This document shows, piece by piece, positions 42,784 through 64,000 of a stretch of DNA of 64,000 nucleotides (within the stretch, counting starts at the first letter, position 1; every line of letters starts with the position of its first letter). The position numbers were made by a program, and so were the translations under genes. Origin of the DNA: Lophium mytilinum (taxonomy: Eukaryota > Ascomycota > Dothideomycetes > Mytilinidiales > Mytilinidiaceae); the NCBI GenBank assembly GCA_010093605.1, contig MU004199.1, positions 875,609 to 939,608 on the forward strand, read 5' to 3'. The notes below the pieces were generated by a model. The model was not told the DNA's origin and made no database searches. It saw nothing but the letters and a program-made list of their open reading frames with translations.

Positions 42784-44483
42784 ATGAACAGCATCACTAT
42801 CGATGAGGCTGCTAGCTTACGCAGTGAGCTTGCTGCACTAGAAGAGATACATTCGCAGCTACAGAATGATCGAGAACAAGTGGGAGGCCAGAAAAAAGAG
42901 CTGTGCGATCAACGAACAGAACTTTCTAGGCAGCAAGCGGAGCTTGTGAAGCAACAAGCAGAACTCGCGAAGCAGCAAGCACAATTCGCAAAGCAGGATC
43001 AGGCCCTGGGCGTACGGGAAGTTCAGATTGGCGATAAAGTCGAAGATAACCAAGCAGAGATATTGGTGAGCGATCGTCTCGATCCTTACCTCCATCTTCT
43101 TTGCCTCAAGTAAGCTGTCTAACGTTTGTGTCTGCACGTAATAGGTAATCCGGAAAAAGCTCAGGCAATATCGAGACATCCAACAGATTGAGCCGAACCC
43201 TCCACACCACGGCCCTTCCGAGACCCAGTCAATTCCGACTGTCTCCATTCAGAGAGCCGTTGCTCATATACCAGTGCAGCATTCTCCAATCGCGTCCGCA
43301 TCCGACACGATTACCGTTCGGTCCACACCAGTGGCGGGATTCACCCAAAACAATCCCAAAAGACGACCTATCGATCAGTCGAAAGTTGGTATCATTGTGA
43401 TGCAAGGAGGAGGCATCTATCTCCAGCAATACGAGCATGTGGTTCAGATGGATGATGGAAGATGGGTATCACTGAAATGTCACCTCTGCGGTATCAACGT
43501 GAACATTTCGACTGGTGGATATATGAAGGGACTACGAGGATTCAGATTACATCTCGAAAAAGCCCACGATATATCCCAGGACAGCCTTGCCCAGGCGCTA
43601 GTTCAGTGCTGTGATAGGGAACTCACTCAAACTCAGGTCGACGCTCTCCGATTGAGACTGCCTGGAGCTCCCAGAATGACCAAGTTCGGAAAAAAGAAAG
43701 ATGAGGAAGGGAGAAACCTTATCGCCATAGTAAGCAGTCTGCGACTCACTTCTCAAACTGGTGAGATCGACGAACCGGCTATTGAGCAGACCGAGATCCA
43801 TACTTCCAGTCCCGGACTCGTCAGCGTCGAGCGCGTAAAACGAAAGAGAGATTCAAATGAGTCGTCTGGTTGCACTACGAACATTGCAACAGACGAAATC
43901 GTCGGTGAGGATGGTCGGAGCACCGTTCTCCAAGGTGGACACACGGACAAGAGAGCTCGCAATAACGAACTTACGTAAGTCAAAACATATACGATTGCAA
44001 CTCGCTCTCCGATATCGCAAGTTTTCTACAAAATAGTCAGACGCTGATTAGCAATACAATAGACGCAGCTCACTTGGACTACGTCCGAATCCACCCGCTA
44101 CGCAAAAGGCCCTCGCTGAGTCCCACCATGACGATAACATGGGTGATACTCTGACCCAACTGGAAGAGGTGTGCCCATGCAACCTCTCAAATCATCGTTG
44201 TTCCATGCTAAGAGGCTGTCGTATGATTAAGATCTGTACCGTAAGTACTTTGTCCTTCAAAGAAGACGATATCGGATTATCGAGCTGACATGTTGTCTCC
44301 TCATAGGAAAAGAAAGGTGATCATGACGAAACTTGCCAGCAGGACGCTCACAACATAAAGCCATCTTGCAGTACCATCAAAAGCCATAGGAAGTGTCAAG
44401 TAAAAGACTGTCAATATGGTCATGATAGGCGTCGCGCTCGGGAGAGACTCTACCATTACCCGAACGAGTGTTCTAACCATTAG
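42784..44483 (+). CDS. Coiled coil + long-loop C2H2 finger + C-terminal Cys/His module (488 aa)
   Basis: There are four exons: 42784-43065, 43145-43974, 44063-44240 and 44307-44483; all phases close. Exon 1 is a heptad-rich coiled coil with repeats of QQAEL(V/A)KQQ. Exon 2 holds one finger at ~200-240: WVSLKC-x2-C-x(~18)-GFRLH-x4-H, followed by the conserved LTQTQVDALRLRLPGA, then a basic NLS-like VKRKRD. Exons 3 and 4 carry the C-terminal module: C-P-C-x2-S-N-H-x-C-x5-C-x5-C, intron, H-D-x2-C-x8-P-S-C-x8-C-x4-C-x2-G-H-D and a last C-x2-H at the stop. C-x8-C-x4-C-x3-H fits a CCCH zinc finger. Four other genes in this window share the module. Nuclear nucleic-acid binding is inferred; I know no named family. 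Confidence 0.75.
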
Positions 44484-44913
44484 GCCAGATCCGTGGAGGT
44501 TCCATATGCACTGGGAGCTATCATGGGAATTGGGGAGAGAGGCTAGGGAACACTTCAGAGGCTTTCCTGCCATGTGCGTACAAATTCGCCCAAAATTGTG
44601 GTTATGACCGGCTACCACGTGATAGATAGTGTATGTTACAATAACTACTACGTTTTAGTCGCATAACCTTTGGCAATGGAATGATTGATTCCCACTTCAC
44701 TCCTTTCATCTCACCCATTGTTAAGCGAGGAACATCCACTTCACCCCCCTCAGTTCACCCTAACTTCAAGCGAGGAACAAGCACGTGCGTCCGCCCCACC
44801 TTCTTGCTTACTAACCACTCTCTTATATTCTGCAGCTTCCTGAACCTAGCTGTTGCCCACCTCCCTCACTCACTGTGCATCGTCTCATTGCGCTCAACAT
44901 AGAGGCCGACGCT
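44484..44913. other. Intergenic
   Basis: Short spacer between two co-directional module genes. 44690-44790 has an imperfect direct repeat (TTCA(T/C)..CACCC..TTAAGCGAGGAACA occurring twice, ~58 bp apart). No gene. Confidence 0.4.
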
Positions 44914-46280
44914 ATGGAAGAGGCGAAACATCTTCAAGGCCAGCTCGACGCCTTGGAAGTCAAACACTCACAGCTCTTGAAAGATGAGCAAGACCTCGAA
45001 GTCCGCCAGAAGGAAAACGCGTACGAACGCGCGCGTGTGGAGCTGAAGCAATCCGTGAGTTACTCCTCACCTCTGACCTTGGGACACTGATCTTAATGAC
45101 TTCGTGTCTTTAGAAACTACGGAAACAGTTGCGCGAGCTCCAGCATAGGCAGACTACGAACAGTTCCTCGAAGCCAACGCCGCTGGAGATGCCAGCCTCT
45201 GAGGAACCCCAGACCACGGACCGAGCACCGATGGAACCCGTACAACCGATCCACCAGCCAGCCGCTACCGCGTACGAATGGCCATCGGGTCCGATGAACG
45301 AGCCGCAACAAACGTTCCTCCTTGAGCGCGTCAACATGACAAAGAAGAAGAAGGACTCTTACGCCTTTTGGGATCCTGTAGATCCTGTGCTTCTTGGCAT
45401 CCCCACTTATCCGATCATAGTGAGGACTCCGATGTGCCTCAACGAAATGATGGAAAAGCTGGCCCGTGGAGAATACCGCTCCGTCATTGATTTCATGAAG
45501 GATCTGGATCTCGTCGTCGACAACAGCATACTCTTCAATAGCTTGACTCACCCTATCGCGCAGCAAGGTCTAAACATGAGAGCCTTCTTCTTGAAGGGCA
45601 TGTTGGCAATGCCGGGGGTACGGTCAAAGACAGCCCGCAAGCCACGCGAGATGCCTGGAGGCCCACAGAATCCCATCAACCTTGAGGAATACTCTCCGAA
45701 GAACACTCCGGTTGACCACTCGGCAAATTATGAGTCGGATAGCTCTTACGAGGACGATGAAGTCTTGAAGGGTACCTGGTCATGACGGCTATCTAGCGGT
45801 AATCGGAAAACCTATCTAACAAGCCAATAGTTGAGACTCCTGATAGTTCTAGCACGAAGCGCAAGCAACTGCCAGTCACTCCTTCTCGTCTTTCCCAAAC
45901 AAACCAGCGCTCCGCAACGAAGCGACGGTCAAACGCAACCACAGTGCCTATACTGGTCACATATTGCCCATGTACCGTGTCTGGACATAAGTGCGGCATG
46001 TATGGACTGTGCGACAGGATAAATCTCTGTGTCGTTAGTATCCAGCAGAACTACCCACTAATCCTGTTTTTTGAGCTAATTCGTCTCGTGGGAATAGCAA
46101 AACACCCACGACAAATACTGCCAGAACAGCACGAGCCATGAATTCCTCCCAAGCTGCCTGACGAACATTTATGCAGCTAATGGCTGCAAGATTGAGGGGG
46201 ACAGTGGCTGTGGGCTGGGTCACGACAACGCTGCTGAGCGCAAACAGATCCACGACGAGCACCTATGCGGTTCTCATTAG
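44914..46280 (+). CDS. Coiled coil + bromodomain + C-terminal Cys/His module (394 aa)
   Basis: There are four exons: 44914-45054, 45114-45771, 45831-46033 and 46098-46280. Exon 1 is a coiled coil like that of the preceding gene (LQGQLDALEVKHSQLLKDE). Exon 2 contains a bromodomain at ~120-210: FWDPVDPVLLGIPTYPIIV (ZA loop), TPMCLNEMMEKL, YRSVIDFMKDLDLVVDNSILFN with the acetyl-lysine-binding Asn, and HPIAQQG. Exons 3 and 4 give the same module as the neighbour: C-P-C-x2-S-G-H-x-C-x5-C-x5-C, intron, H-D-x2-C-x9-P-S-C-x9-C-x7-C-x2-G-H-D, ending C-G-S-H. The module only appears after splicing 45772-45830, which removes an early TGA. Reading acetylated chromatin is the likely job of the bromodomain; the module's role is unknown. 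Confidence 0.78.
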
Positions 46281-46595
46281 CTGGTAAGGGCGGATATGGG
46301 CGATAATAGTCGGACGATGAGGGGCGGTGGGGCATTTTGTAGGCTCATTGGCACGCTATGCGTGCAGTCTTTGCGTGAAATGAAAGTCACTCTTTGTTCA
46401 TTACTTGACTATGCGTGCTATCAAGTGTTGCAACTTGTGCAACTTCAAGTAATCAAAGTTGAGGCACCACTATTAATGTAGTATCGAGACTCTCGCTTTT
46501 TATGTTACATTATTGACCTACGCTTCTGTGACTAAGAGTACTTCTTCAACAGAATTTAGTGGCCCTACCCTGAGGCTATTGTTCTCGCATTACTG
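46281..46595. other. Intergenic before the 240-bp array
   Basis: 3' side of the bromodomain gene. No gene seen. Confidence 0.4.
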
Positions 46596-47606
46596 GCTAC
46601 AGTACCAGGCCATAAGTCGGGGAACGCGGATTGATTACCGTTCAGCTCCCATTTGCTCACTTGACACCACTGTGAGGAGTAGCCCAGCCAGCTGATAGGC
46701 TGTGAGTTAAATAGCACTCTGATTTGTACTGCCTGGAACTTGACATCGCAGCTGGAGGTTTATAACCTTATGGGGAAACCCTAAACAGTGGCGAAGCAGT
46801 GTACCGAGCCCTCTGGCCTGTAACTGTGATCCGGCGCTACAGTACTATGCCATAAGTCTAGGCACACAAAATTAAAGATCGTTCAGCTCCACTTTGATCC
46901 CTCGATACCACTGTAAGGGGTAGCCTGGCTGTTCGATAGCTAGGCAGTCAAGAGGCAGTGTGATTTATACTGCCTAGAACATTACATTACGGCCAGAGGT
47001 TTATAACCTTATTGGGGTACCCCAAACAGTAGCAAAGCAGTGTACCCCGACTTCTTACCCGTAACTGTGATCCGGCGTTACAGTACTATACTATAAGTCT
47101 AGGCACACGAACTGAATACCGATCAACTCCAATATGCTTACTTGAAACCACCCACAGGAGTGGCCCAGCCAGCCCATAGGCGGTAAGTTACGTAGTAGTC
47201 TGATTTGCACTGCTTAAACTTTGACATTAATAGAACTAGGCTATAAGTCCGGGCATATGATAATATCTATGCTTTGCTCTAACTTTTCTCTCTCGGCACC
47301 ACGGCTAGGGTTACCCTGGTTGCTAAACAGCCATTTAGTTAAGAGATAGTCTAATATGTACTGCCTGGAATTCGATATAGCCCATAGGACATTGAAATCC
47401 TGTGGGGGTACCCCAAGCAGCGTCAACAAGCGGTAAATTTAAGGTCATTATTTCTGCGGTACAAGACTACAAGCCTACGCACACAAATTCATCACTGCTT
47501 GCCTCGAATTTTGCTCATTCACTACCACTGCAGGGGATGGCCCAGCTGCTGAATGGCCAGTCAGTCAAGAGGTAGTCTGATTCGCACTGCCCGGAACTCG
47601 ACATGG
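46596..47606. repeat. 240-bp tandem satellite array, about 4.5 units
   Basis: Units start at 46596, 46836, 47077, about 47226 and about 47458. The first two intervals are 240 and 241 bp; unit 3 is shortened to ~150 bp. Landmarks: CTACAGTACTA.GCCATAAGTC, ACCACTG.AGGGGTAGCC, GTCTGATTTGTACTGCCTGGAAC, GGTTTATAACCTTATTGGGGTACCCCAA. No open frame is conserved between units, so this is non-coding. A further decayed unit lies at 52946-53150. Confidence 0.75.
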
Positions 47607-47846
47607 CGGCTTGCTGCGTTGTCTTACAGCCTCCGATGCCGCCTATCAGTGCGCGTGGCATGCGCTGGTCCTTCCCCTTCCCCTTCCATCCTTCACTTCA
47701 CCGCTAAAAACGCCCGCATCGTTACCCATAAATTCAGTTCTGAATACTCCTCTTGAAACCACAAATTTTACCCTCAAAGAAAGGGTGACCGAGTACAACC
47801 AACTTCCAACAACCTAAACAATCTCACGAGCTTTCTGGTCCCCAAA

Positions 47847-47999
47847 ATGCCGGTTCCGGGCGAAAATCAATACGAGCCGCCGGCGGTTTTCCACTACAGG
47901 TGCTGCGAGTGCGCTACCTGGTTGATTGGGAAGATAGGTGTGCGAGCTCCATGCCGGTGTGGACATGTACGGTGCAGGTACTGTCATGCTGGGCCTTGA
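47847..47999 (+). CDS. Zinc-ribbon microprotein (50 aa)
   Basis: This is a single-exon frame. After a 17-residue lead it reads C-C-x2-C-x(~12)-C-x-C-G-H-x-R-C-x2-C (CRCGHVRCRYC), ending AGP before TGA. The pattern is the same class as the zinc ribbons at 12.3 kb and 16.8 kb, with CGH in place of CG-x2, and it resembles short uncharacterised proteins widespread in Dothideomycetes with a CCxC...C.H.RC..C layout. Nearly a fifth of the residues are Cys or His in a metal-binding spacing, unlikely by chance. It lies between two tandem repeat arrays. No signal peptide. Unknown role. Confidence 0.6.
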   Translation: MPVPGENQYEPPAVFHYRCCECATWLIGKIGVRAPCRCGHVRCRYCHAGP

Positions 48000-48035
48000 G
48001 ATTTGGGGATAGGGGCGGGGAGGTTGGAATCTATA

Positions 48036-48481
48036 TCGTAGTGGTCAAACTGAAGCATCTCTTGGTTTGATTCGAACCTCGGAAAACTTGACATCACAAA
48101 GCTGGAATTATAGAAGGTTGAGTAGTGCTTCAGCCCTCTTTTCGTAGTGGTCAAATGGAAGAGTCTCTTAGCTTCATCTGAGGCCCAGGAAACTTGAAAT
48201 CATAGAATTCCAATGAGATATGTTTAGGTAGTGCTTCGAACTCTTGTCGTAGTCGCTAAGCGAAAGAGTCTCTTGGCGCGATCTGAAGTCTGGGAAACTT
48301 GACGTCATAAAAGTATATTGAGAGAAGGTCAGGTAGTGCTTCGAGCTCTTTTTTGTAATCGTCAAATTGAAGAACCGCTTAGTCTAATCTGAAGCGTGGA
48401 AAACTTGACATCACAGGATTGCAAATACAGAAGGTCAGGTAGTGCCTCGAACTTTTGTCGTATTGGTCAAACCGACAAATC
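48036..48481. repeat. 105-bp minisatellite, 4.2 units
   Basis: Units start at 48036, 48142, 48247, 48353 and 48458 (partial), a very regular 105-106 bp spacing. Shared text: TCGTAGTGGTCAAA..GAAG, GGAAACTTGACATCA, AAGGTCAGGTAGTGCTTCGA. Units are ~75-80% identical by eye. It is unrelated in sequence to the 240-bp array upstream. Confidence 0.8.
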
Positions 48482-48600
48482 CATACTCTTGATTCCGAGC
48501 GCAATTCTCCAGACAACTTAAAACCCCCAATCTACACCGCCGACGCGAACATCTCTACTCCCGCCTCTCAACCCAGGCCCCCTCCGCATTTCGAATTCTC

Positions 48601-49288
48601 TTAGTAACGCGCCTCGGACGGCCCCCAGCCAGTCCCACCGGCTCCTCCACGCCTCGTTTGCGCTTTGCCGGCTGTACAACGAACGGAACTACTCAAAATC
48701 AGCACCCGAATTCCAAGAGCCTTCAAATCACCTACCTCCATGCTTCTTGCTGCCCCGCCTCACAATCGCCCTCATCTCCCCCGGCGTAATCTTCCTATGC
48801 TCACACGCCTCCAAAGTCTCCGCCAAACTATACGCGATCCTGTGAGCGCCGCGGCGGTGCTGCGCAAACCCGCCCACCCCCTTGAGGAACTGCGTCGTGC
48901 CCTTCAGATTGGCGTAGGCGTTGGCGCCGCAGGCATCGCACCTCAGCTCCACGAAGTCATCCCCGACCCGCACGATGGTGGGCAGCCAGGCCGGGACGGA
49001 GGGCAGATTCGCGGGCTCGGGATTTGGGGTCTCGGTGACGGTGTCTGGCAGCTGGTCGGCGGCAGCGGGCTCGGATTCGGGCGGTGGGGGCGCTGCGATT
49101 GGGACGTTGTCGAGCTTGGCGAGGGCCTCCGAGAGGGTCTGACGGTCCTTCACGAGGCGCGCGATTTGGGCGTCGAGGTTGGCGATGTGGGCGCGGATCT
49201 CGGTCTTGGCGGCGTCGAGTTCGGCCTGGGTGGGGAGGGTGCTGGTGGCGGTCTCAGCGAGCGAGGGGATGGTCTGGTTGGCGGACAT
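48601..49288 (-). CDS. Coiled coil + single long-loop C2H2 finger (207 aa), module-less relative
   Basis: Exon 1 is 49288-48736 and exon 2 is 48671-48601. The N-terminus is a coiled coil (QAELDAAKTEIRAHIANLDA, ARLVKDRQTLSEAL), then a Pro/Glu linker, then the finger VELRC-x2-C-G-x(~17)-GVGGFAQH-x4-H, followed by KITPGEMRAIVRRGSKK. This matches the layout of the genes at 42.8 kb and 60.6 kb, including the helix after the finger. The 3' end is uncertain. The phase-consistent splice (GTAGGT donor, TACAG acceptor) stops at 48601, but a GTGAGG donor 30 nt earlier leads to a basic tail (AKRKRGVEE..) stopping at 48555, which looks more like the NLS of its relatives. No Cys/His module follows in either case. 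Confidence 0.65.
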
Positions 49289-49959
49289 AGTGGCCCAGAT
49301 TGTGTGAGAAGAGAGAAGATTTGAAGGTTGTGGCGATGGCGATGATGAAATTTGTGGAAAAAGCTGCGAAGCTGTGCGGTGGTGATGTCGATAATGAGAA
49401 AGCTGAAGTGCTGGAGAGGAGGGAATTGAGATGTTTATATACGCTGGCGATTCGAATTTGGGTGCTGTATAGAACAATACACTTATTGAGACAATAGTGG
49501 GAGAGGTGAAGCTGCAACAAGGGACTGAATAGCTATTGTTCGGGGAGCGGTGAAAATCGTGGGAACTATGGAACAGTGAAAGATCACATGTCAATGCACG
49601 CGCAGTTATCCTTCAATTGGCGTAAAAACATTCGTGATTTTGGCAACCATTATAGGAGTTGAGGGCGCCATTTAGCCTTGCGAAGATTAAAGCTGCAGAT
49701 GTAGAGGAACTCAAGCGCGATATGGGACCTTTGGAACCTACGTTTTGACTGCTACTTGACAATGCTTATGGGTTCAAATTGCGCGCATGCAGTGATCAAC
49801 TTGACAAGCGCAACAGAGCCTCGAAGGGCCACCGGGCCTTACGGGAAATGACATAGAAGATGTAAAGCTTGCCAGTCTCAATATTGGACGTCGGAATATC
49901 ACTGCATGACTTTGATGGGAAAAGTACGAGGCAACTCCAACAATGCTAAATAAAACATA
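49289..49959. other. Intergenic
   Basis: Promoter of the finger gene and 3' region of the kinase gene. No gene seen. Confidence 0.5.
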
Positions 49960-51301
49960 CTACATCTTGAACCAAGGGTGCTCTAGAACGGTTGCTGTGG
50001 AAATCCTTTCCCTGGGATCATATTTCAGCATCTGCCCGAGAAGGTCTGCTAGTACTCTACCCTCATCTCGGGGAATCGTATGGCTTTTTGTGATGACACC
50101 GTTAAGATCATGAGTGACTCCTTCCTCCACATATTCTTCAATCGTTCTTGCACCCGACACAGACATATGCCCTGACTCGGTCATGTACGGGTCTCCATTG
50201 TCATCGAAGTAATTCTTACGCGTCTCCCAAGAAGACCACCACGGCTCAGGGAACTTTCCCAGCAATACAACCATTTGCCATTTAGGGTCCTCTCCGTCCC
50301 CTTCCCAGTCACGGAAAAGCCGTCTTGTGGTCCGGATCTCGGAAAGGGTACAAGCGAGAGCCCAAAGATCACTCGCTTGGCTGACTATGCTGCCAATCAA
50401 GAGCTCAGGCGCGCAATAGGCAGTCGGGGTCCCAAGCTCCTTCGGAGGATTAGATGTTTCGAACGATTCACCGAAGTCGACTACCGCTATCTGGTCTTTG
50501 AAGTATTTGCGATCCACGTTGCGGTCCCAGGCTATTGGTGCCACGACGTATTTTGGAGCGGCTGGTTCGGGCTCTTCACCCGATTTGGTATACACTTCAA
50601 AGGACTCGGGCTTTCCCAGTGCGTGGATTAGCTCTTCCTCGTTAAGATGGTCCAGAGAGGAAATTTGGAGCAAGATGTTTGCAGGCCGAAAATCTGGAAT
50701 CCAAGTCAGTCAAATTTACTAGATATTAAAAAGAAGATACTGGGCACGAACCACCGTGGCCTAGACCATTGCTATGTAAGGCATGGAGTCCTTTAGTGGC
50801 GTGTAGTGCGATGTTCCTCAGGGACCTTTCGGGACTTTCAAACAGGTCCCAAGCCTGGTCAACCCGGGGGCCAAAGACAGGAAGAACCAGACAAAGATGC
50901 CGTCCATTCGGCCCATCAACCCAAAATTGATGCTGCGGCAACCCGAGCCCGTCGCATCCTTCTAATTTGGTCATTTTCAAATCGGCGCAGTCTTCGCGAG
51001 ATTGATCGGCCGCGATGATCTTTACAGCCACGTACTTTTCCATTTCACGATCTCGACAAAGCCATACGGTCGCCAATCCCCCGGCTCCAAGTTTGTGAAC
51101 AACTCGGTACCGGCCTTCAAGCTCGTCCCCAAGAAATACTGGGTGGAAACCACCTTCGCAGTAGTCTTCTAGGTCTTCGATCCCATCGATAAAACATGAC
51201 TGATATCGTCTTCCTTCCAAGGGACCATCGACGGAATTGTCGGCGCCTTCTAGAGACTCCAAGTCGTCGGGACTAGGCGATATCGAGGAATGGGTTCCCA
51301 T
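49960..51301 (-). CDS. SRPK-like protein kinase (426 aa)
   Basis: There are two exons, 51301-50755 and 50693-49960. The glycine loop is LGAGGLATVW, the ATP-site Lys is in YVAVKI, and the catalytic loop is formed across the splice as H-D-F-R-P-A-N-I-L. Metal binding is VVDFGESF, and the activation segment ends CAPELLIG. A C-terminal lobe runs to LKYDPRERISTATVLEHPWF. The linker before the DFG (residues ~190-260) is typical of the fungal SRPK-like kinases that form large families in ascomycetes. The catalytic Asp is present two residues away from the usual HxD spacing (HDF rather than HTD), so activity should be checked. Probably a Ser/Thr kinase; substrates unknown. Confidence 0.88.
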
Positions 51302-52502
51302 CTCGTCCGCTAGAAAACTTTACGATGCGAATTGAAGAAAGAGCCGCGTAGAATCCTACTAACGTCGTCTGACAGGCTTTTTCGCCCAAGATACTCATGT
51401 GCAATCTGAAGAAAAGGCTTATACGTCCTACGCAGAATGTGAAGAGATATCTGTTGGCGATGGACAGAAACAGTGCTGCTATGTCAGGAAAAGTAGACCT
51501 CATGAAGTTGAGAACAGCCGAGGCAACGCAACTATGCGCCTCATGAGAGAGCTTCCGTATATGACAGACGGAAAAGAGGCCTGGCATAAATGCTTTGCGC
51601 ATATGTTGCAACTTGGCAGCAAAGACTGGAGCCGCTGAGGTTGATTTAGCCTACAACAATAGCACCGCGCTAACACGATCAGTTCTAGCGCCATCTCAAT
51701 CTCGACCCCTACGAACCGCCTCTTATTTTAGGGACAGCACAAAGGGATTGGAGAACTATTTTGATGACCTTGATAAGAGTGGGAGGTGATGTTGGGCCTT
51801 CAAGGAAATCGGATTGGAGTTATAAGAGGTGGTAAGCACGAAATTCCACTCGAAGGGGTTTGCACTCCAAATATTAGAGCCTTTCGTATCAATTATACTA
51901 CAATAATTGAGTAGGCTACAGAGACTTGGACGTCTTCGTGTAATCGAACCATGTCCGTAGACACCTTGAACAGTTCACCTACTAATGAATTACGCGGCGC
52001 GGCGTGTCTCCCTTGGAGACTTCACCACGTAGTCTCGTAGTATCACTACTTAAGCACGGGATTTAGTATTACTCGCTCGACACCGGTTCGAGGAGCGTTC
52101 CAGGTATTGATCATCCGATTGAGCTAACGGGATATCTGATCTCAATTGCGATAGCCATCGTCTCCTTAATTCTCAGAGCCCACAGAGTTGCCTCCAGCAG
52201 CGATAGAGAAATATAGCCCACCTAGCTCGCTGTCGTATAAGATGATTTAGCCTAAACAGCACATTGGTATTACTTTTAGAGGAGTATAATATCCAATCAG
52301 GTGCCTCATGGGCACTTGACGAATTTTTATTTATAATCTAGCTGAGTTGGGCCACTGTGTACACTGGTCTATCAACTGTCCGAGGTACCCCAATGAACTC
52401 TCCTTATCTCAAGTCCGACAAAAGCCTTTTATTCTGAACACTGGATCAGCCTACCAAGCTACCTCAGACGGCGCTGTCTTACAGAGAAGAGCTATGATCA
52501 GA
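51302..52502. other. Intergenic
   Basis: No gene is supported. 52060-52145 (minus) has a tRNA-like A box (TTAGCTCAATCGG) but no matching acceptor stem. Confidence 0.4.
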
Positions 52503-53522
52503 CTAGTGCTCATTGCAGAAATGTTCTGACGAGATCAACCGTCTATCAGCGATGCTATCATGTCCCTGTCCACAGATACCACCAAGCTCTTGAGCGTAAC
52601 ACTCATTCTGTTCGAGGAAGCTAACGCAAGACGGGAGGAAGTCGTGCTTTTCCGAAGCGGGGCACTCTACGTCGTGAATGGATCGCTGCCAGGAAACACA
52701 GATGAGCGAAGGCACTCATTCAATTATATGCATTTTGGAACACTTACCAGGCAAAGCTTTGGCTGGCTGCATCCTCCGTACATGCCACACAAGTGGCCTG
52801 TCATATTGCAAGGGCAGAAATCGCCGAGTTTCAACAGCGGCGTCGAGGGACTGGATGCATTGTCGATCGGAGTGTTCGGCGGGAGCTTTGTAGGCTTAGG
52901 GGACCTAAAAGACCAAAGTTGTTAGTATGTATTCGTTGAAGTACGTAACATAGTACTAGGCTAAAATCTAGCCGCACTATCTGCTATAGCTTTAATGCTT
53001 TCGAAAGATGAGCACCACTACAAGGAGTATTTCGTTACAAATAAATCTGCCAGTCCGGAGGCAGCTCTGGTTACCCTGCCAAAACCTTGATATCGTGCCT
53101 AGATCTGGTGAAAGCTAATGGGGATGCCTCAAGCAGTGAATAACGAGTGATCACAGACTTATAGTCCGTCTGTAGCTGATATTTAGCTGTTGTGGCTTTA
53201 CATACTCTTCATGGAGGCCGACTCTTTCAGCTAGGCGTGGTTTCAACATAATACATTGAATGGCGCAAGGCATTGAGCTTACACTTTTCTGGCGATCGAG
53301 CTCGTCCGTCTCGTCGATTAGCTTCTTCTCCTTAGCAACAAACTCGGTCTGCAATATCTGGATCTGCTGCAGGGGGACGAAGTCTAGGCCGAACTCGTCC
53401 AGTAGGTCCTTTTGCGCCTTAACAAACGCCTCTTGTAGATTCTTTTGAGCTGTAGCCTTTTCCTGCATCGCCCGATCTAGGCGATCAAGCTCGCCGCGGA
53501 GGACATCTGCGTTTTGCGACAT
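52503..53522 (-). CDS. Coiled coil + C-terminal Cys/His module, middle missing or intronic (~190 aa)
   Basis: Exon 1 (53522-53283, 80 codons) is a coiled coil (LRGELDRLDRAMQEKATAQ, LIDETDELDRQK) ending in a GTAAGC donor at the same place and phase as in its relatives. The last two exons (about 52894-52748 and 52685-52503) encode the module: C-P-C-x2-T-G-H-x-C-x5-C-x5-C, intron, H-D-x2-C-x9-P-S-C-x8-C-x8-C-x2-G-H-D, ending C-N-E-H. The finger exon found in relatives is absent. In its place is a 388-nt stretch containing a decayed 240-bp satellite unit. The natural TTTTAG acceptor (52904) is out of phase with exon 1; an AAG acceptor ten bases on keeps frame. It may be a shortened gene or one damaged by the repeat. 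Confidence 0.6.
52946..53150. repeat. Decayed unit of the 240-bp satellite
   Basis: It shows the same ordered landmarks as the 46.6-47.6 kb array: CATAGTACTAGGCTA, ACCACTACAAGGAGT, GGTTACCCTG and TAATGGGGATGCCTCAAGCAGTG. It lies inside the apparent first intron of the gene at 52503-53522, 5.3 kb from the main array. Confidence 0.5.
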
Positions 53523-54229
53523 GGTTCAAGACTATGAACGGCAAGAAGTGCCGGAGGCAAAGATGGAGTGACTGGGTAGTAAGCAACGCGCGAATAAGAA
53601 TCGCGGCTTGCGGGGCGCTAAGATATTCTAAGCGAGGCACGTGCCAGATATGTATGCTATGGAAATGGTATGACCGGAGTTCTCCAGGGAAATACGCAAG
53701 ACAGGTTCGCACTAGGGCACAAGATAAAACTCTAGAGCGTTGAACTAAAGCTAGGATTGTCTAGCACATTTGAAAGTCTAAAAACTTAGCGCGGATTGGT
53801 AGCCACCGAGCGTAGCACCTCCTTGGTAGTATAAGAGTTCACACGGGAAGACAATTCTGTTCTGGACTGAACTTTACCGGCTCGAGCTTAATCTACTATG
53901 AGCACAGTACTACAAGGCGTTATTTGCACAAAAACAGCCTTGTTCAGCGACTACTTTGTAGCTTGCATTGCGCCACAAGTCACCGGACGCGCGAATATCC
54001 GTAACCGACCAAGATCTGCCAGCCTTCTCTACTATTCGACGTATCGCGAGCCTCGTATGCAGCCGACAGCTCGGAAGGGACCTTGGCATTATTGTCTTGC
54101 TATCTTTAAATCCCCACGTTTCCCAAGCCCCCAAGTCCTCTCTTTTTCAGCCTTGTCGCCATTTGCAAAACGTCCTTTTCCCTGAGGAGCGCCCCATGCG
54201 GTAGAGACGTTTATCAGCTCTCTAATGCC
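53523..54229. other. Intergenic
   Basis: No gene supported on either strand. Confidence 0.4.
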
Positions 54230-55114
54230 ATGGCTGCTTCCTTTTTCTTAGTAATATGCATTGCTCTCGCTAGTTTTACCCACAGCCTCCAAGTCGACAC
54301 GACCTCAGCCTACGTTAATCTCGAATAGCGCCTACGAAAACCTCGTCCTATACGTATCGACCACATCCGGGGAAGCAGACGTAGTCCTCTCCGACATCGC
54401 CTCCGCAGGCGACGGGAAATACTGGTACTTCGATATTTCAGGCTCCACCTACGCTATTACGCCGAAATCGTTCCCAGCCTACCGCCTGGACGGCCATTAC
54501 TACAACAAGGTCCCATACCTCAGCGTAGCAAGCACTCTGCTGGGCGGGCAGGTATGCACATTGACACGTGGTCGGATGGGTCGTACAAGCTTTGGCAGGA
54601 CTGCTGTGGTGATGGCTTCACGCTTGCGGCGATGAGCAATAGGAGGACAACGAATGTAACTGAGGGGAATGACGATTCGCACCGGTGGTCGCTGGCGGCG
54701 AGTTCGACTACTTCGAGCGTATCGAGCACATTAAGCGCATCGTCCACATCAACTATAACTTCAGCCTCATTAACGTCGTCAAGTGCTCCGATAATCCCGA
54801 CTTCAGCATCGCAGACGGCGTTGCCGACCGTAATTCCATCTCCAAGCCAGTCGAGTTCCACGAAAAACGGCGGGCTGTCCGCGGGCGCGAAGGGCGGTAT
54901 TGGTGCCGGCGTCGGTGTGGGAGCCATCCTATTCATAGTACTAGGCTTTATAGTCTGGAAAAAACGAAAGAGGACAGGCGATGGAAGCCTCGAACTTCCC
55001 GAAGCGCATCCACAACCAAGTCATAGTGACCAGTACGAGCATGGGATAGCTGGTGGGCGCGCGAAATTGGAGGCCCCTAAACCAGCTTGGATGTCTTCAT
55101 ACGGAGGAGGCTGA
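54230..55114 (+). CDS. Secreted-domain single-pass membrane protein, Ser/Thr-rich stalk
   Basis: ATG 54230 gives a good signal peptide (MAASFFLVICIALASF). The body, in a different frame, has a small extracytoplasmic domain (NLVLYVSTTSGEADVVLSD, YWYFDISGSTYAITP, DGHYYNKVPYLSV). A 47-nt intron (54552-54598) follows, then DCCGDGFTL, a long Ser/Thr stalk, a membrane helix (GAGVGVGAILFIVLGFIVW) and a KKRKR stop-transfer, ending WMSSYGGG at 55112-55114. The topology is that of the many fungal wall-facing membrane proteins with a short cytosolic tail. No splice joins the signal-peptide frame to the body cleanly, so either the true first exon is elsewhere or there is a one-base frameshift between about 54290 and 54330. 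Confidence 0.6.
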
Positions 55115-55846
55115 GGACTGGGATTGCATACTTCGGGAGATGCTGTTTCGGTGGAGCGCTGAATCCTTGGACGCTTTCAGAGTGCCGTACCCGCAATGCG
55201 GGTCGTTTATGGTATCTTTCTGACCTTTAGTTGTGCGGTGCTACGACAATGCGGAGAGAGGAGTCGCGTAGATATTCTAATTGACAGGTGTGCGTAAAAC
55301 GATTTAGGAGTCTACCCGTAGTTCCGCATGATGAGAATCCAGAACAAATACCGATTTTGCGGCGCTAGACAGGAATTAAACGGACGATCTAGCTGGGCGT
55401 ATTAATGCTGTAGTATGTTTGTAAAGACACCTGGTTTCACGAACGTGGGCTTACCCATGCCACAGGTGCCGTCAAGTCTTATCGAAAACGCGTCCAGCGT
55501 TATAAGTCTTGTAAGGGCAACAATGGGCTCCTTACTCGCGAACCTGGGTCTTATAGAAAAAGACAGTACGTGCTAGCGGCATACAACTGAAAAGGTTGTG
55601 GTACTTAAGATCACGTGATACAACCCGCCAAGACATGTGGAGACGAATTGATGGCATGTGACAATTCGAACTTTTTCAGACTTTCACATGTTGCTCGTAA
55701 CCACGCGTTCGCTAGGATTGGCATTCGAAGAACATGTCGAGATTCGGAGAGAAATCTGCCCAGTAAATGAGAATCAGATTATATTATTTGTACAACAATT
55801 GGGAAAGTACAGAACACCAATGCTAATTCGACATGCTTTCAACCGC
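55115..55846. other. Intergenic
   Basis: Region between two convergent genes. No gene seen. Confidence 0.5.
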
Positions 55847-57102
55847 TCACAACTTTGGCTTCGATATGATGAACGAGTTTCCCTTCTGCAGCCACGAGAC
55901 GGCATCTCCAACCAGCTCGTCTACGATGGCCTTGGCGCTCTTCTTCTCATTAACAACGGCAGCAGCCTTGCCCATGAGGAACGGACGGGCGTTGTCCATA
56001 GTCTCGTCATCAATATCGTCGCCCATCTTTTCTAGGTCGTGCTCAGCGGGGATGATACCCTTGCCTGTTAGCTCCTTGATTTCCTGCTGCCTGTTCTCTT
56101 CCCAATTCGCGATGTATGGGTTGGTGCGCACTCGGAGCGGCCGGCCGGTGAAAATAATTGTGCGAACGTTGTCATCAAAGCCAGAAGTGCGGACGGCTTC
56201 TTGGTGGGCTTTCGGGGCGCCAGCCTCCTCTGACAGAATGAAGCGTGTGCCGATCCAAACAGCGGAGGCGCCGAGCATTAGCGCAGCAGCGAGAGATTGG
56301 CCGTTGTAGAGACCGCCAGCAGCGATGATCTGTACCTGGGCACCAGTCATAGGTGACTTATGACCCTTAACGAGCTCGACAACGGCCGGGATTAGGACCG
56401 TAGTCGGGACATCGCCGGTATGCCCTCCGCCCTCCCCACCCTGGGCGCAGATGATGTCTACACCAACCTCGAGGCACTTCTTGACGTGCTTGGGGTGTCC
56501 GATCATGTTCATGTAGAGGATGCCGGCCTTGTGTAGCTTCTCGACGACGGCCTTGGGTGGAACGCCTACGGCTGAGACGAATAGCTTAGCACCGGATTCG
56601 ATGATGATATCGACGAGCTCATTTAGCTTTCCCTTGGTGTAGTCGTAGCTAATCACATGCAAACGTCAGCTTGGGTTCCTCGAATAGTCATATTCTTGCT
56701 GAGTGATATAGTAATCACGCGGGTACTAAGGCATTTTGATGCACAGCTGAGGGCTGAGAGATGACAGTGCTTACTTGGTCTTCCGCGCGCTCCCACCGAC
56801 TTGAGGGATTAGCAGGTCAACACCAAACGGCGCATTCTTGTCGGTCAAGTAGCTCTTGAGTTCTGCGACTTGCTCCCGTAGCATATCAGGCGTGTATCCT
56901 ACACCTCCGATGACACCGAGACCCCCAGCATTTGTGACGGCAGCGGCGAGCTTGGGGCCAGCAGCAACGTTCATGCCAGCAAGGAGGACGGGGTGGTTGA
57001 TCTTCAGAAGATCAGTGGCCGTGGTGCGGATTTGCTCTGTGTATTGTTAGAAATGGCCAGGGCGCATGTGACAAAAGACAGTGACGTACGCGGAGAGGCC
57101 AT
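55847..57102 (-). CDS. Nitronate monooxygenase (358 aa)
   Basis: There are three exons: 57102-57090 (only 13 nt), 57036-56775 and 56648-55847. The start MASPQQIRTT..LLKINHPVLLAGMNVAAGPKLAAAV is the beta-barrel entry of 2-nitropropane dioxygenase-type enzymes, followed by GGLGVIGGVGY, CAQGGEGGGHTGD with the catalytic-base His, IIAAGGLYNGQSLAAALMLGA (FMN phosphate site) and GTRF. These FMN enzymes oxidise toxic nitronates such as propionate-3-nitronate. The tail (AEHDLEKMGDDIDDETMD..) is fungal-type. It is divergent from the folate gene across 556 bp. Confidence 0.92.
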
Positions 57103-57658
57103 GGTGGCTGTCGATGGTTTTTGAGGTGAAGAGGGCGTATGGGGCGTGTGTACTTCGATGTGGGTGAGGGTGTGGATCGAAGGACGAGGATGTTTGTTGT
57201 AAGTGCGAGGGTCGGGTCTTATGAATGAAAGGCGGGAGAGTCGAACGGCTCGACGTCTGGCGACTACCCCAGGAATCGAGAAGATACCGAGGCACCGAAA
57301 GAAACCGGGTTTAACTGTGTGGGGCATAGTGTGGACACTTTGCCTCCTCCATCTAGCTGCATCTCCGTGAGCATCTGCTTATGCTGGGAGTGCGTCCGCT
57401 GATTCCGCGTAGAGAGGCGACATGCGCCAGAGTGAACAGCATCGCTATCTTATGACAGGCCGATATCTTCAGAGCTGCTTGACTAACTCCAGCAAATGAG
57501 GTCCAGCATTGACCATTCAACGAGGGTCCGCTTAAACTGCTATTGGACCCTGCGCTAGTCCTCGGAGCAGCCGGCGCAATGAAGAATTTATTCACCTAAC
57601 TACCAACATCAACAAAATGTCGATATAGGAGGCTAATGTTGCACAATACGTTGCCTCC
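57103..57658. other. Divergent promoter, nitronate monooxygenase / folate gene
   Basis: No coding sequence seen. Confidence 0.5.
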
Positions 57659-59754
57659 ATGAAGATTTCCACGAGAGCGTATAGAGCCTCCAAAAGAGTG
57701 CTCTCGCCAAGCTTCCGGAATCCGACCCCCGCCGCATCACAGTCGATTCGGAGTCCGTATCTGTCTGTCGGGGGTGTCTCAACCTCTTCACTTCAACCTC
57801 GTTCACCAAAGCGAAACTTATATAATATGGCCCCAGTCACCTTCACACAGTCCTTCGTGCGTCGTTTCCACGATGGCCCTCGTGAGAAACACCGCGCCTT
57901 TGTCGCCCTTGGGAGTAATCTCGGAGACAGGGTTCGATGGATCGAAGAGGCATGCAATGCCATGGAATCAGGGGGTGATCTTAAGGGTGAGATGGGACGC
58001 GACATCCGGATCCTACGAACCAGCAGCCTTTGGCAAACGTCTGCCATGTACGTTCTAGATCAGGGGGACTTCCTTAACGGCGTATGCGAGGTAAGAAATC
58101 TCATGTCTCAATCATACTCTCGGTGTCGTCCCGATTTCGTATCGCTTGCCACTGTCTGTGGTGTCCCATAATACCTTCACGCCTCAGGACAAGATGTCAA
58201 TTCAGAATTTCTCATCGTTTGCCGCTGTCTGGGGTACCTCAACAAGTCTCAAAATACAAAGACGATATCTCAATTCTGTACATTCTAATCCAGACTAATG
58301 TCGTCTAAAATCTCATGAACGGCTGGTAACTTTACTGTACCACCTCAGACAGGGTCGTCGACCGGTCCGAACAAGCATGCACAAATAGTGATTTATCATC
58401 GACATCTTGCGTGTCTTGAAACACACTCAAAATTGTTCTAAGATTTTGTACAGATCGAAACCCTCTTGAGCCCTATAGAATTACTCGACAGGCTTCAAGC
58501 AATCGAGAACCAGCTCGGCCGCGTGAAGCTGATTGATAAGGGCCCTCGAAACATAGACCTTGACATCCTTCTCTACGATCAGACAGTCTTCCTCAACGAA
58601 CGGCTACAAATACCGCACAAGCTGATGCTAGAGCGCGAATTTGTCCTACGCCCTCTTTCCGAGTAAGTTGAGCCCTACGCGATACCCCTGCACGTCTACC
58701 ATCTATATCCGCTCTATGTGTCTGCCTCCAACGTCTATCATTAATGTCAATGCTGTACGCTAAACATCCCAGATTAATCCCCAGCGAATCTCTTTCCACA
58801 GCACCAACAACCACCATAAGCACCGCCCTAACCCAACTACCCCTTGGAGACGCCCCTATGACCTCCTACACCCCCCTCTCCCTCCACTCCCACCAACTCC
58901 CTCCCATAACCCCCCAACACACCCACCGCAAAACCCACATCATGTCCATCCTCAACGTAACCCCCGACTCCTTCTCCGACGGCGGCCTCCACTCGCCCCA
59001 CGACACCCTCCACCTCTCCAAAACCGCCGCCGCCCACATCGCCTCCGGCGCCACCCTCCTCGACATCGGCGGCCAGTCCACCCGGCCCGGTGCGCCCCAA
59101 GTCTCCTCCAAAGAAGAACTCGCCCGCGTCCTCCCCGCCATCCGCGCCATCCGCGCCCTCCCATCCGCCGCGAACATTGCTATCAGCGTCGACACCTACC
59201 GCGCCGATGTCGCCGAAGAAGCTGTGCGCGCCGGCGCGGATATCGTCAACGACGTCAGCGCCGGCGCAATGGACCCGGATATGCTCGCGACGGTCGCGCG
59301 GCTGGGGTGCACGGTGTGCCTAATGCATATGCGCGGCACGCCAGCGACGATGAACAACCACGCTTCTTACCCCCTCGGCGTCGTTCCAACAGTGGCGGAA
59401 GAGCTGCTCGAGCGCGTGCGCGCCGCTGAAGCTGCGGGAATACGCCGGTGGCGGATCATTCTCGACCCTGGGATCGGGTTCGCGAAGACGCAGGAGCACA
59501 ATCTAGAGCTGCTGCGTAATCTGGAGCAATTGAGGAAGTATCCGGGGCTTGAGGCGTTTCCGTGGCTGGTGGGGACGAGCCGGAAGGCGTTTGTAGGGAG
59601 GATTACGGGGGTGACGGAGGCGCGGGAGCGGACGTGGGGGACGGCGGCGGCGGTGAGTGCAGCGGTGGCGGGGGGTGCGGATATTGTGCGGGTGCATGAT
59701 GTGGATGAGATGGGGAAGGTGGTGGCGATGGCGGATGCGGTGTGGAGGGTTTGA
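57659..59754 (+). CDS. Bifunctional HPPK / dihydropteroate synthase (540 aa)
   Basis: There are three exons: 57659-58090, 58454-58662 and 58773-59754. The first ~70 residues are Arg/Ser-rich without acidic residues, like a mitochondrial presequence; a second Met at residue ~57 (MAPVTFTQSF) could start a shorter form. HPPK: ALGSNLGDR, GPRNIDLDIL, PHKLMLEREFVLRPL. DHPS: SILNVTPDSFSDGG, GGQSTRPGA, SVDTYRADVAEEAV, NDVSAG, MHMRGTPATM, WLVGTSRKAFVG, VRVHDVDEM. Together they make dihydropteroate for folate synthesis, and the DHPS half is the target of sulfonamides. The dihydroneopterin aldolase part present in yeast Fol1 is missing here. The first intron is 363 nt, far longer than any other in the window. 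Confidence 0.93.
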
Positions 59755-60623
59755 TGGGGTGAAGAAGGGAAGTGGAGAATTAGGGCTGTGGAGCATAGTC
59801 TCATGGTCTTTGTATTCTGTATACCGAATTGTGGTTGTCCGGGGGTATTAGTCTACCTTCAGAAATGCAGTCGACGTCGAATTATGGTATCTGGTATGTA
59901 CGGTCGGTCGACCAGCTGGCCTACCTTACCCGGCGGTTGGCCGGCTGTTTTACGCGGTGGTGGTTGCAGTTCTCCAAAGACAGCGAGAGCATTACAGGTA
60001 GAATATAATTGGCAGCAGGAGGGCGTGGGAGACACGCGTTTTGCGCTCTACGAATACATGCCAACACGCCTCCACCATTAGGGCGGCCGAGTCTTTAACC
60101 CTTTACGCAGACACCCATTTATTCAGGGCCGATCCCAGGCTCTAGGTCATTAGTAGGAAATTATCGATAAGTTGGATAGAAAAAGACAAGGATAACCTAT
60201 AGGAGAGACATACGTCAGGGAAACCCCTACCCAAAACTCGGAACTAGCCCTTGTAGCGATGAATGCAGAAAGCTAGTGGCACTTAATAGTTGCGTTAAGC
60301 GACCCGTTATAGAAGGCGGGTAGATCAGGATATTTAGAAGTATAAATTAGTAGAAGGTCGAAGCTAGCGTATATAAGGCTGACGGTGTACACCAAAAATA
60401 TTGCATTGATACTACCAAATACTATAAAAGCCGAAAGGGTTTGCTGTCATGACTACCCGTAGTCCGACCGGGTAGAGATTTGTCTGGATATACCATTTCG
60501 GGATCGACCAAGAGGTGATAAACCGAGATACTCGTATAAACCTAAAGAACAAATTGAGATACTTCGTCGCCGTTACTACCACCGGACCGGTACCCTAGCG
60601 CGGCAACGTCGCCATAGCTCTAG
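59755..60623. other. Intergenic, partly TA-rich
   Basis: No gene is seen. 60090-60600 is rich in TA steps and carries scattered protein-like scraps in several frames; it looks like an old, heavily mutated repeat, but I cannot name a family. Confidence 0.35.
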
Positions 60624-62641
60624 CTAGTGACTGGTATGGTTATGTTGAAACCGCACCCTCCTAAGAGCAGCATCATCATGACCATCTGGGCAGTCGTGCC
60701 GGTGACAATGCTGAAGGGCGGCAACATTAGTGCAAGTGGGCCGCAGATGGCAGTCTTCGGATGTCTTGCAGGCATCGCTGTGCGGGAAATTCTGTCGATT
60801 GGACACGATCAGCAGTGTGCTTGGGATGAATGACGATGTAAACATACTAGGCAGATCTTTGGCTTTTCGCAGCCGGCCATTCTGCAAGGATGGCCCGAGA
60901 GACTACATGGGCAGTAGTCTTCTAACTGGTGTTGCGTTGTATTCGGTCTCGGCGGGGACATGTCCACCGTAATCTTGTCTTGGATGCTAGTCGTTGTTCG
61001 ACGTGAAGGCTTTCTACAGGAGTCCCTACCACCATCAAATGGATTAGCACACGTCACCAACCATAGGGACTTCGGGTTAGACTCACTGCCCACTTTTGCT
61101 CTGACGAGCCCGTTTGATGCCTACGCGATTGTCTCCCTCAAAGTCGCTCTCGGTTTCATCAGCAGTATCTGCGCTTTCGTCGTCGTCAGAGGTTGAGCGC
61201 GTTACTCTATGCCTGTCCCTATCTCGTTTACGCGTAGCTGTTTTGCAGTCTACTAAGAGAGGTCAGAGTTTGCTTCGTTTGGAAAAGACCATGAAGTGGA
61301 ACTTACTCTTGTACGCTTCTCTACCACGCTGCCTAATTCCTTCCACCTCTCTGTCGGTCAGCTCACGCTGACTACAGAGAGACAAGACTCGCTCAGCAGG
61401 AGACGGCAGACCACGAGTTGAGTACGTTACGCAGTCGGTAATCGCGTCCCATTCTTCCGGATGAGACTGTTTGAGATGTTTTCCAAATCCATTCAAACCT
61501 TTGAACTCGGTCGCCTGGTTCGCCCTGTAGTTGACGCTATTGATCCCACAACCGTTGACATTGCATCTCAATTCGACGTATTTCGTATTCGGGAGCTTGA
61601 TGATGGTTGGGAACAGTCTCAACACGATATCATCCGTGGAAGTCTGCATCGTATTGATGCCACTGTTACCGTTGGTGGCATTGTAGTTAGGAGCGGTCTG
61701 ATCGACAGTACTCCCCGCGATCTTACGCATGGTTAGAGCGCCAGGCAGCCCCAGTCGAAGGGCGTCGATTTCGTCAGTGGATAAACGACGTACTATCTTA
61801 CAGTGAGCAACGACTTGGTCGTCTGCAAGGGTTGGTATCTGATGAAATCGGCTAAGATGGCGTTTGAAGCCGTTCAGACTTTTGTAGTAGTCGTTCTTGC
61901 CGTGATAGTTCACACCACAAATACCGCATTGCAATTCAACCCAGCTTCCGTCATCTAGCCGGGTGACGTGGGAGTAGTCGATCAGGTACGTAGTCCCGTG
62001 TTCAGTTCTGATGCCTGTGGTATCGTCGTGCCCTATGATTTCGGATGGGTTTGGTGCTTCCAACCCGGGGTTGTCATCAGAACCATCAAAGTCATCCTCG
62101 GATCCGGGATCAGCCATCCTACGAGAGCTTGTAGGATTGACATTGCAGGCAGCTCTCGAAGGGGCAGCTTGATTAACGACAGGGAGTGTCAACTCGGCCT
62201 GATCGCGCTGAAGAGGTGGCGTCGCAAAATTTTGCCGATGCGGGACTTGAGATTTGCGGAGTGCGCGCTCTCGCTTTTTGAGGACCTAAAACCACAATCA
62301 AGGTTAGTGAAGAGACGGAAGGGCTCGTTCATAAAGTGACTGACAAAAATCTGTCTCCCAATGTCCTGGAAAAAGGTCAGCAATTCATACTGAACTCAAC
62401 ACGTCAGAGCCGGGATGAGACCCACAAGCTTCCTCTCTTCGATCTTCTCCAATTCATCCTCAAGTTCTGTATCCCGACGGATTAAGTCTGCTTCTCGTTT
62501 CTGGAGCTTCTTGAGCCTCGCAGATATCCGTTCGGTATGCCCTCGTATCTTATGCAGCGCTGTTGACTTCTGCTCGAGAGAATCACTCAATTCGGCGAGT
62601 TGGCTGCGCAATGTATCATATTGGGTAATAGGGTCTTCCAT
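60624..62641 (-). CDS. Coiled coil + two long-loop C2H2 fingers + C-terminal Cys/His module (568 aa)
   Basis: There are five exons: 62641-62426, 62285-61307, 61252-61087, 61025-60848 and 60791-60624; all phases close. Exon 1 is a coiled coil (YDTLRSQLAELSDSLEQKS). Exon 2 has finger A at ~190 (WVELQC-x2-C-G..LNGFKRH-x4-H, then LSTDEIDALRLGLPGA) and finger B at ~315 (YVELRC-x4-C-G..LNGFGKH-x4-H, then LTDREVEGIRQRG). Exon 3 is basic then acidic (TRKRDRDRHR, DDDESADTADETESD). Exons 4 and 5 carry the module: C-P-C-x2-S-G-H-x-C-x4-C-x5-C, intron, C-x9-P-T-C-x8-C-x4-C-x2-G-H-D, ending H-T-S-H, so the final Cys is His here. Exon 4 is 178 nt, identical in length to the matching exon at 44063-44240. 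A DNA/RNA-binding regulator is inferred. Confidence 0.78.
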
Positions 62642-63678
62642 TTTGTAATAAGGAGGGTTTGAATGAAAATTGCAGGGAGATGGAGGACGGGGAAGCCAGA
62701 ATCTCTAGAGTCCAAGTCCGGAGAACGGCCAGCATACCTATCTACGCGCTAGCTGTTTAGAAGTGACGTGTAACATTTAGATGAGTTACCGCTCAGCTGC
62801 ATAATGGACCCATATTTCATCTGCGCCTCCCGTAGATATGCACTCACCCAGTCGCTGATCCCTAGCTGCTGCTCATGTGTCACTAGAGTCTTCAAGCCAG
62901 TGGAAGGCTGACTTCAACTACATATTGGGCTCGGGCGTCTACGCTTTCACTACCGTGGAGTGTCGGAATTCATCGGCTGGTCAGCAAGATGCCCAATTAG
63001 AAAAGGATGTACGCAGCCTCTAGACGTATCTCTTCGTTATCGTTGCGAGTAGGTATGGTGGCAGGATGGCTTTGGTTCCTAAGAAAGGGCTGATTTGGAC
63101 CAATGGGCTCGAGCTCACGGACTTCCGCCCGTGTTTCCCATTAAACCGCCTGCAGACTGACCATAGGATGCGTCTAAGGGCTGTTGGTTGTTGCCTACGT
63201 ACAGCGACAGCCCGTCAGGTGTGTACCTTGTTGGCTTTCCTGTGTAACAAACGCGTTACATAGTGCAGGAAGCGGATTACGCCACCCAACTTCCACATAG
63301 GCGTTTCCAAGGACTAGACGCGATCAAGCAACAGGATCCCGGATAACCGACCACGCTTCGTGCACCGATATCTTAAAGGCAGTATCATTTAACAGTCAAA
63401 TCGCGGTCTCTAGAAGCCCATTCCAAGAGAGGAAGTTTTCTGATTGCAGGTTGCCTATAGAACCTTACCACCCCGTTGTCTCAAACAACTTGTTTCGGCA
63501 CCGTGTAAGACCATCAGGATCAAACTAGCCCAAGGATTTAGAGATCCCAAACAGTTCGACAACTTGCGCGACAACGCCGCTACAACTACCCCGTATCCAA
63601 CCCAATCCAGTGGGTCCAAATCTCAAGACATCTCCGCTGCACAATTCTTCCCAGTCATAGACGCCTAGAATGCGCGCG
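62642..63678. other. Intergenic
   Basis: No gene seen between two module genes. Confidence 0.4.
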
Positions 63679-64000
63679 CTAATGCTGATTGCATACGTGC
63701 CCACGGAAAAGTGCTTGTCGAGCCTCAATGTCATCATGGCCGTAAAAGCAATAGCCGTTATCGTAGGCCGCACAGTTTGTGCTAAAGACCATCGACAAGC
63801 AGGTCGGGCGGGCGACGTGGTCGTGGGTAGCGCACTGGTTATCGTGTGTATCAAGCTATTGAGATGGGTAGTTAGATAGGACGTTCGGTGTTTGATTGGA
63901 TTTGCGACTTACAGTGCACACCTTGATGCCCATGCAGTTGCCGCCGCATGGATGTCCAGAAATGGTGCAAGGACAGTACAACATGAACGGATCAAATTGA
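63679..64000 (-). CDS. Partial gene ending in the Cys/His module (runs off right edge)
   Basis: Two exons are visible: 64000-63913 and 63855-63679. They encode C-P-C-x2-S-G-H-x-C-x3-C-x5-C-T, an intron at the family position, then H-D-x2-C-x8-P-T-C-x8-C-x7-C-x2-G-H-D and a final C-N-Q-H before TAG. The last exon is 177 nt, the same as in the gene at 42.8 kb. The intron interrupts the module exactly where it does in the four other copies. The N-terminal part lies beyond the window, so the partner domain is unknown. Confidence 0.75.

Follow-up and report, generated by a model that had tools for sequence, protein, structure and literature searches.

Gene organization at the locus

We analyzed a 64,000-nucleotide stretch of the genome of the ascomycete Lophium mytilinum (the window; C19:875609-939608, where C19 is contig MU004199.1). 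It holds a cluster of neighboring genes that share a Cys/His-rich module of ~80 residues at their C-termini, encoded over two exons. The module ends five spliced genes, g1 and g2 on the forward strand and g3, g4, and g5 on the reverse strand. All five copies described in the original prediction are present, and the intervals that it gave for four of them (44063-44483, 45831-46280, 52503-52894, and 60624-61025) are the exon boundaries that we derived, while the fifth (63679-64000) is cut at the window end. Splice sites and exon joins throughout are predicted from sequence. The exons are as follows:

42784..43065, +, g1 exon 1: coiled-coil-like N-terminal segment (48% E, K, Q, R, and D)
43145..43974, +, g1 exon 2: linker and one BED-like finger (about 43406-43669)
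44063..44240, +, g1 exon 3: linker and module first half (CPC box; Cys/His at 44172-44237)
44307..44483, +, g1 exon 4: module second half and stop
44914..45054, +, g2 exon 1: coiled-coil-like segment
45114..45771, +, g2 exon 2: bromodomain (PF00439, 57.5 bits)
45831..46033, +, g2 exon 3: linker and module first half; the preceding intron has a weak donor (GTACCT)
46098..46280, +, g2 exon 4: module second half and stop
53283..53522, -, g3 exon 1: coiled-coil-like segment
52748..52894, -, g3 exon 2: short linker and module first half; the preceding 388-nucleotide intron is uncertain
52503..52685, -, g3 exon 3: module second half and stop
62426..62641, -, g4 exon 1: coiled-coil-like segment
61307..62285, -, g4 exon 2: two BED-like fingers (61737-62000 and 61308-61637; zf-BED 22.2 bits, cut-off 20.6)
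61087..61252, -, g4 exon 3: basic linker (KRDR, KRAR)
60848..61025, -, g4 exon 4: module first half
60624..60791, -, g4 exon 5: module second half and stop
past window end, -, g5: rest of third exon and two upstream exons (coil, two BED-like fingers)
63913..64000, -, g5 third exon, 3' part: module first half, cut by window end
63679..63855, -, g5 last exon: module second half and stop

With relaxed patterns for both module halves, the window gave these five copies and no others, and 100 windows simulated as first-order Markov sequences gave none. Searches of the whole genome (43.18 Mb, 24 contigs) with single copies linked the copies to one another, with a best cross-match expect value (E) of 9.6e-9. 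The intron within the module lies at the same codon in all five window copies, as had been predicted, and is in phase 0, one codon past the sixth Cys/His; it is bounded by GT...AG and measures 56-66 nucleotides. It can be read at the same position in a sixth copy, g6, at C19:960.8-961.1 kb, 21 kb outside the window. The six C19 genes together cover ~43 kb. A broken remnant of the module, with internal stops, lies at C1:672.9 kb. The original prediction mentioned neither g6 nor this remnant, nor the shared first segment, bromodomain, or BED-like fingers of the genes. No further convincing copies were found in the genome with six module exons, one half containing the CPC box, and the module of the fungus Tothia fuscella (below) as queries. 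Match counts from these genome searches are lower bounds.

Conserved Cys/His columns and proposed zinc sites

We aligned seven modules, namely the five window copies, g6, and the Tothia copy, leaving out the C1 remnant and a distantly similar protein on C9. Sixteen columns hold Cys or His in at least six of the seven rows; in 2000 shuffles, the mean number of such columns was 0.055 and the maximum was 2. Thirteen of the 16 are invariant, and the remaining three hold Cys or His in 20 of 21 cells, the exception being an Asn in g1. Mean pairwise identity is 92% in the Cys/His columns versus 25% in the 64 other columns. These figures agree with fixed ligands and variable residues elsewhere, but set no time scale on which the change could be called rapid, as it was in the original prediction. 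Besides Cys and His, only the Pro of CPC, the Asp of GHD, and one Arg are invariant. Two of the 16 ligands fall outside the motif first described: an [HC] shortly before P-[ST]-C and a His two residues before the last [CH].

Because there are 16 ligands, the alignment suggests that each module binds four zinc ions. Site 1 would be C-P-C-x4-H-x-C and site 2 C-x5-C...H-x3-C, both of the CCHC kind, and site 3 would be a CCCH finger. Site 4 would be assembled from both sides of this CCCH core, from the [HC] before P-[ST]-C and the terminal H-x-[CH]-x2-H. In g4 and g6, Cys replaces His at column 45 and His replaces Cys at column 90, a paired exchange that would fit two ligands of one zinc (site 4). 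Two points weigh against this pairing. Immediately next to the exchange, g4 has a His and g6 a Cys. Furthermore, g4 and g6 are sisters in the module tree (support 88/87, below the strict level), so the exchange counts as one event at most.

Ligands that stay fixed while the residues between them differ could mark a protein-protein interaction or dimerization domain, in which zinc holds the fold and the variable residues choose the partner. The module is also common to proteins with unrelated middles and to g3, which seemingly has no middle at all. However, any small zinc-held fold would be expected to show the same pattern, and the partner part of this proposal is an assumption. We regard it as a tentative possibility.

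The module matches no named domain in the libraries searched

Sequence searches of Pfam, NCBIfam, and the PDB gave no match over the whole module, in line with the earlier statement that no named domain spans it. Its second half nevertheless has the order C-x8/9-C-x4..8-C-x3-H in all seven modules, which resembles that of CCCH (C3H1) fingers. These have ligands in the range C-x(4-15)-C-x(4-6)-C-x3-H; the middle gap is 4-6 in four of the seven modules and 7-8 in the other three. Unlike such fingers, this half has a CPC box before it and the terminal H-x-[CH]-x2-H after it, and the zf-CCCH profile matched neither any of the five window modules nor the Tothia protein. An AlphaFold2 model of the module was of low confidence (mean predicted local distance difference test score, pLDDT, 46.6). 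With this model, Foldseek returned ten weak matches, none significant (E 2.5 to 7.8, probability at most 0.16), and a VIA structure comparison returned no match. The original prediction of a probable CCCH finger has the spacing in its favor, and the UniRef name of the Tothia protein (C3H1-type) agrees with it, but neither a profile match nor a confident model bears it out; we call the second half CCCH-like.

The same evidence bears on the possibility that the module binds RNA, as a CCCH finger extended by zinc-bound parts. The proteins would then connect sites on DNA or chromatin with the decay or processing of RNA. CCCH order and spacing, together with the UniRef name, speak for this. So do the ten Foldseek entries (M2-1, MBNL1, Mtr4-Red1, and CPSF30), which appear to be CCCH proteins, although their scores are those given above and come from a low-confidence model. 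In many CCCH fingers, aromatic residues stack on bases, yet the alignment has no conserved aromatic column. We regard RNA binding, too, as a tentative possibility. That the module is instead a diverged standard CCCH finger, with the CPC box and the last C-x2-H as unrelated flanks, appears quite unlikely. The spacing would allow it, as would the weak likeness to the C9 protein, which has two CCCH-like motifs. However, in every one of the seven rows, that of Tothia among them, the CPC box is no less invariant than the CCCH ligands, and the single search with a CPC half met no solitary CPC half outside the cluster. The module has no named match in the libraries searched; the kinds of protein involved, zinc fingers and domain-swapped chromatin proteins, are already known.

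Outside this genome, our searches found one other protein, EJ08DRAFT_666503 of Tothia fuscella (Dothideomycetes, Venturiales). It has a BED-like finger and then the full 16-ligand module, in the same order as in L. mytilinum. It differs in being longer (746 amino acids), in its N-terminal part, and in having seven residues past the last His. One relative was thus gained, but not the many same-intron hits in related fungi that the original prediction envisaged. Taken as a whole, that interpretation is borne out in part.

Within the genome, a 225-residue open reading frame with two CCCH-like motifs and weak module likeness lies on the reverse strand at C9:876.9 kb. The alignment of its protein to the module (hhalign probability 78%, E 1.8e-5) has 58 columns and starts with the second half of the CPC part. 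The protein could be a distant source of the module.

First exons and BED-like fingers

E, K, Q, R, and D make up 48-57% of the first segments of g1 to g5, in a pattern that is partly heptad-like. On the basis of this composition and pattern, we describe the segments as coiled-coil-like. None of the five proteins has a hydrophobic N-terminus. A K-[KR]-x-[KR] motif occurs ahead of the module in four of the five, that of g2 lying at the bromodomain edge. These features indicate that the proteins are probably intracellular and nuclear.

Between the first segment and the module, the genes vary. No middle domain was seen in g3; g1 has one BED-like finger, g4, g5, and g6 have two, and g2 has a bromodomain. 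The genome has at least 27 such fingers, and family members lie on C4, C5, C6, C17, and C19. One related gene without the module lies among the C19 genes:

48728..49288, -, N-terminal segment and one BED-like finger (48746-49009)

Most finger copies share C-x2-C...H-x4-H with the BED zinc finger (PF02892). However, the zf-BED profile matched only 5 of 27 finger rows at E up to 0.1 and missed the other 22. The product of g4 exon 2 exceeds the profile cut-off (22.2 bits against 20.6), and the whole g5 protein gave no reported zf-BED match at E up to 0.1. The predicted fold of the finger (88 residues, pLDDT 92.6) has three strands followed by helix, helix, strand, and helix. It had no PDB match at E up to 0.001, and no BED chain was among the matches listed. 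This finger family may deserve its own family name.

A bromodomain with a likely donor gene

Within the genome, the closest match to the g2 bromodomain (57.5 bits against a PF00439 cut-off of 21.7) is the first of two bromodomains in a gene on C6 (C6:403550-403831; 63% identity over 94 amino acids). The likeness continues ~40 amino acids ahead of the bromodomain, giving 55% over 143 amino acids. The C6 gene (C6:403550-404434) also has a Pfam match to the BET extra-terminal domain, split into two pieces of 24.0 and 29.4 bits (cut-off 24.5); because of these two bromodomains and this split match, we assign it as a BET gene. The g2 bromodomain also matches BRD4 and Bdf1 chains in the PDB, and it keeps a Tyr and an Asn that align with those of the acetyl-lysine pocket of BRD4. 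Between g2 and C6, the nonsynonymous and synonymous divergences by the NG86 method are dN 0.32 and dS 2.7 (saturated), which hints at constraint on the g2 bromodomain.

The middle exon of g2 likely descends from this C6 BET gene, by way of its first bromodomain, so that the likely donor would still be present in the genome. In the module tree, g2 pairs with g3 (support 85/89, with a long-branch warning), and because of this pairing the bromodomain may have entered a g3-like gene. As a whole, g2 does not fit the BET family, which has two bromodomains plus an extra-terminal domain: it has one bromodomain stretch and no BET extra-terminal match at E up to 1. Its bromodomain stands single, inside a coil-plus-module frame.

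A decayed piece of g2 exon 2 lies at C1:431121-431273 (85% DNA identity over 364 bp) and starts near the 5' end of the exon. This piece and the broken module copy on C1 would suit a family that is a decaying by-product of mobile DNA, its fingers taken from transposases and its copies without host function. BED fingers occur in hAT-type transposases, and g6 has an in-frame TAG between its two fingers and no stop directly after its module. Against this, the exons of all five window copies stay open and their splice sites and ligands are retained, with g2 to g5 at 32-37% identity to the g1 module. The Pfam matches of the scanned family proteins and open reading frames included no transposase family, and the bromodomain seems constrained. 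We consider such an origin very unlikely.

A small family of probable nuclear adaptors

In the reading that we favor, with a probability of roughly 0.55, the genes form a small family that grew by local duplication. Its products would be intracellular adaptors, probably nuclear, that bind chromatin or nucleic acids and have the module as their common C-terminal domain. The coil would form oligomers, and the middle would aim the protein, BED-like fingers at DNA and the bromodomain at acetylated histones. The module would be the constant output part and bind RNA or a protein partner, two options that we put level. The family would gain members by duplication and by swapping of middles; the acquisition of the first BET-gene bromodomain by g2 would be one such swap.

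It is tempting, though unlikely, to go further and see a fungal counterpart of KRAB zinc-finger clusters. By this analogy, a locally expanding family would carry a new four-zinc tail as a constant effector on chromatin or RNA and exchange its targeting parts behind a common coil; these parts would be either a BET-derived bromodomain or a DNA-binding finger of unrecorded fold, present once or twice. The vertebrate clusters are likewise groups of duplicated genes that keep one part constant and vary in the parts that bind DNA. The C19 family differs, with no KRAB domain, few fingers, and no evidence of repression. The resemblance is one of analogy, not of relationship.

The adaptor reading would provide a concrete fungal case of modular assembly of chromatin-type proteins, with a constant zinc-rich tail, several targeting parts, and one likely donor gene. 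Since the domain libraries searched recognize neither the module nor most of the fingers, naming the 16-ligand module and the finger family could extend annotation to more fungal proteins now called 'hypothetical'. If the tail is the output domain, its ligand would reveal the role of the whole family.

Surroundings of the cluster

The other genes noted in the window are ordinary neighbors:

38408-40414, +, ABC transporter
49960-50709, -, protein kinase
55847-56665, -, nitronate monooxygenase
58672-59754, +, pterin-binding enzyme

At about 47847-47999 on the forward strand, a 50-residue open reading frame has several Cys in a zinc-ribbon-like pattern, with no Pfam match at E up to 0.01. Positions 46598-47610 contain direct repeats with lengths of 241, 149, and 101 nucleotides, diverged to 63-77% identity with their reference copies, and four tandem units of 105 nucleotides occupy 48030-48451 (66-74% identity to the reference copy).

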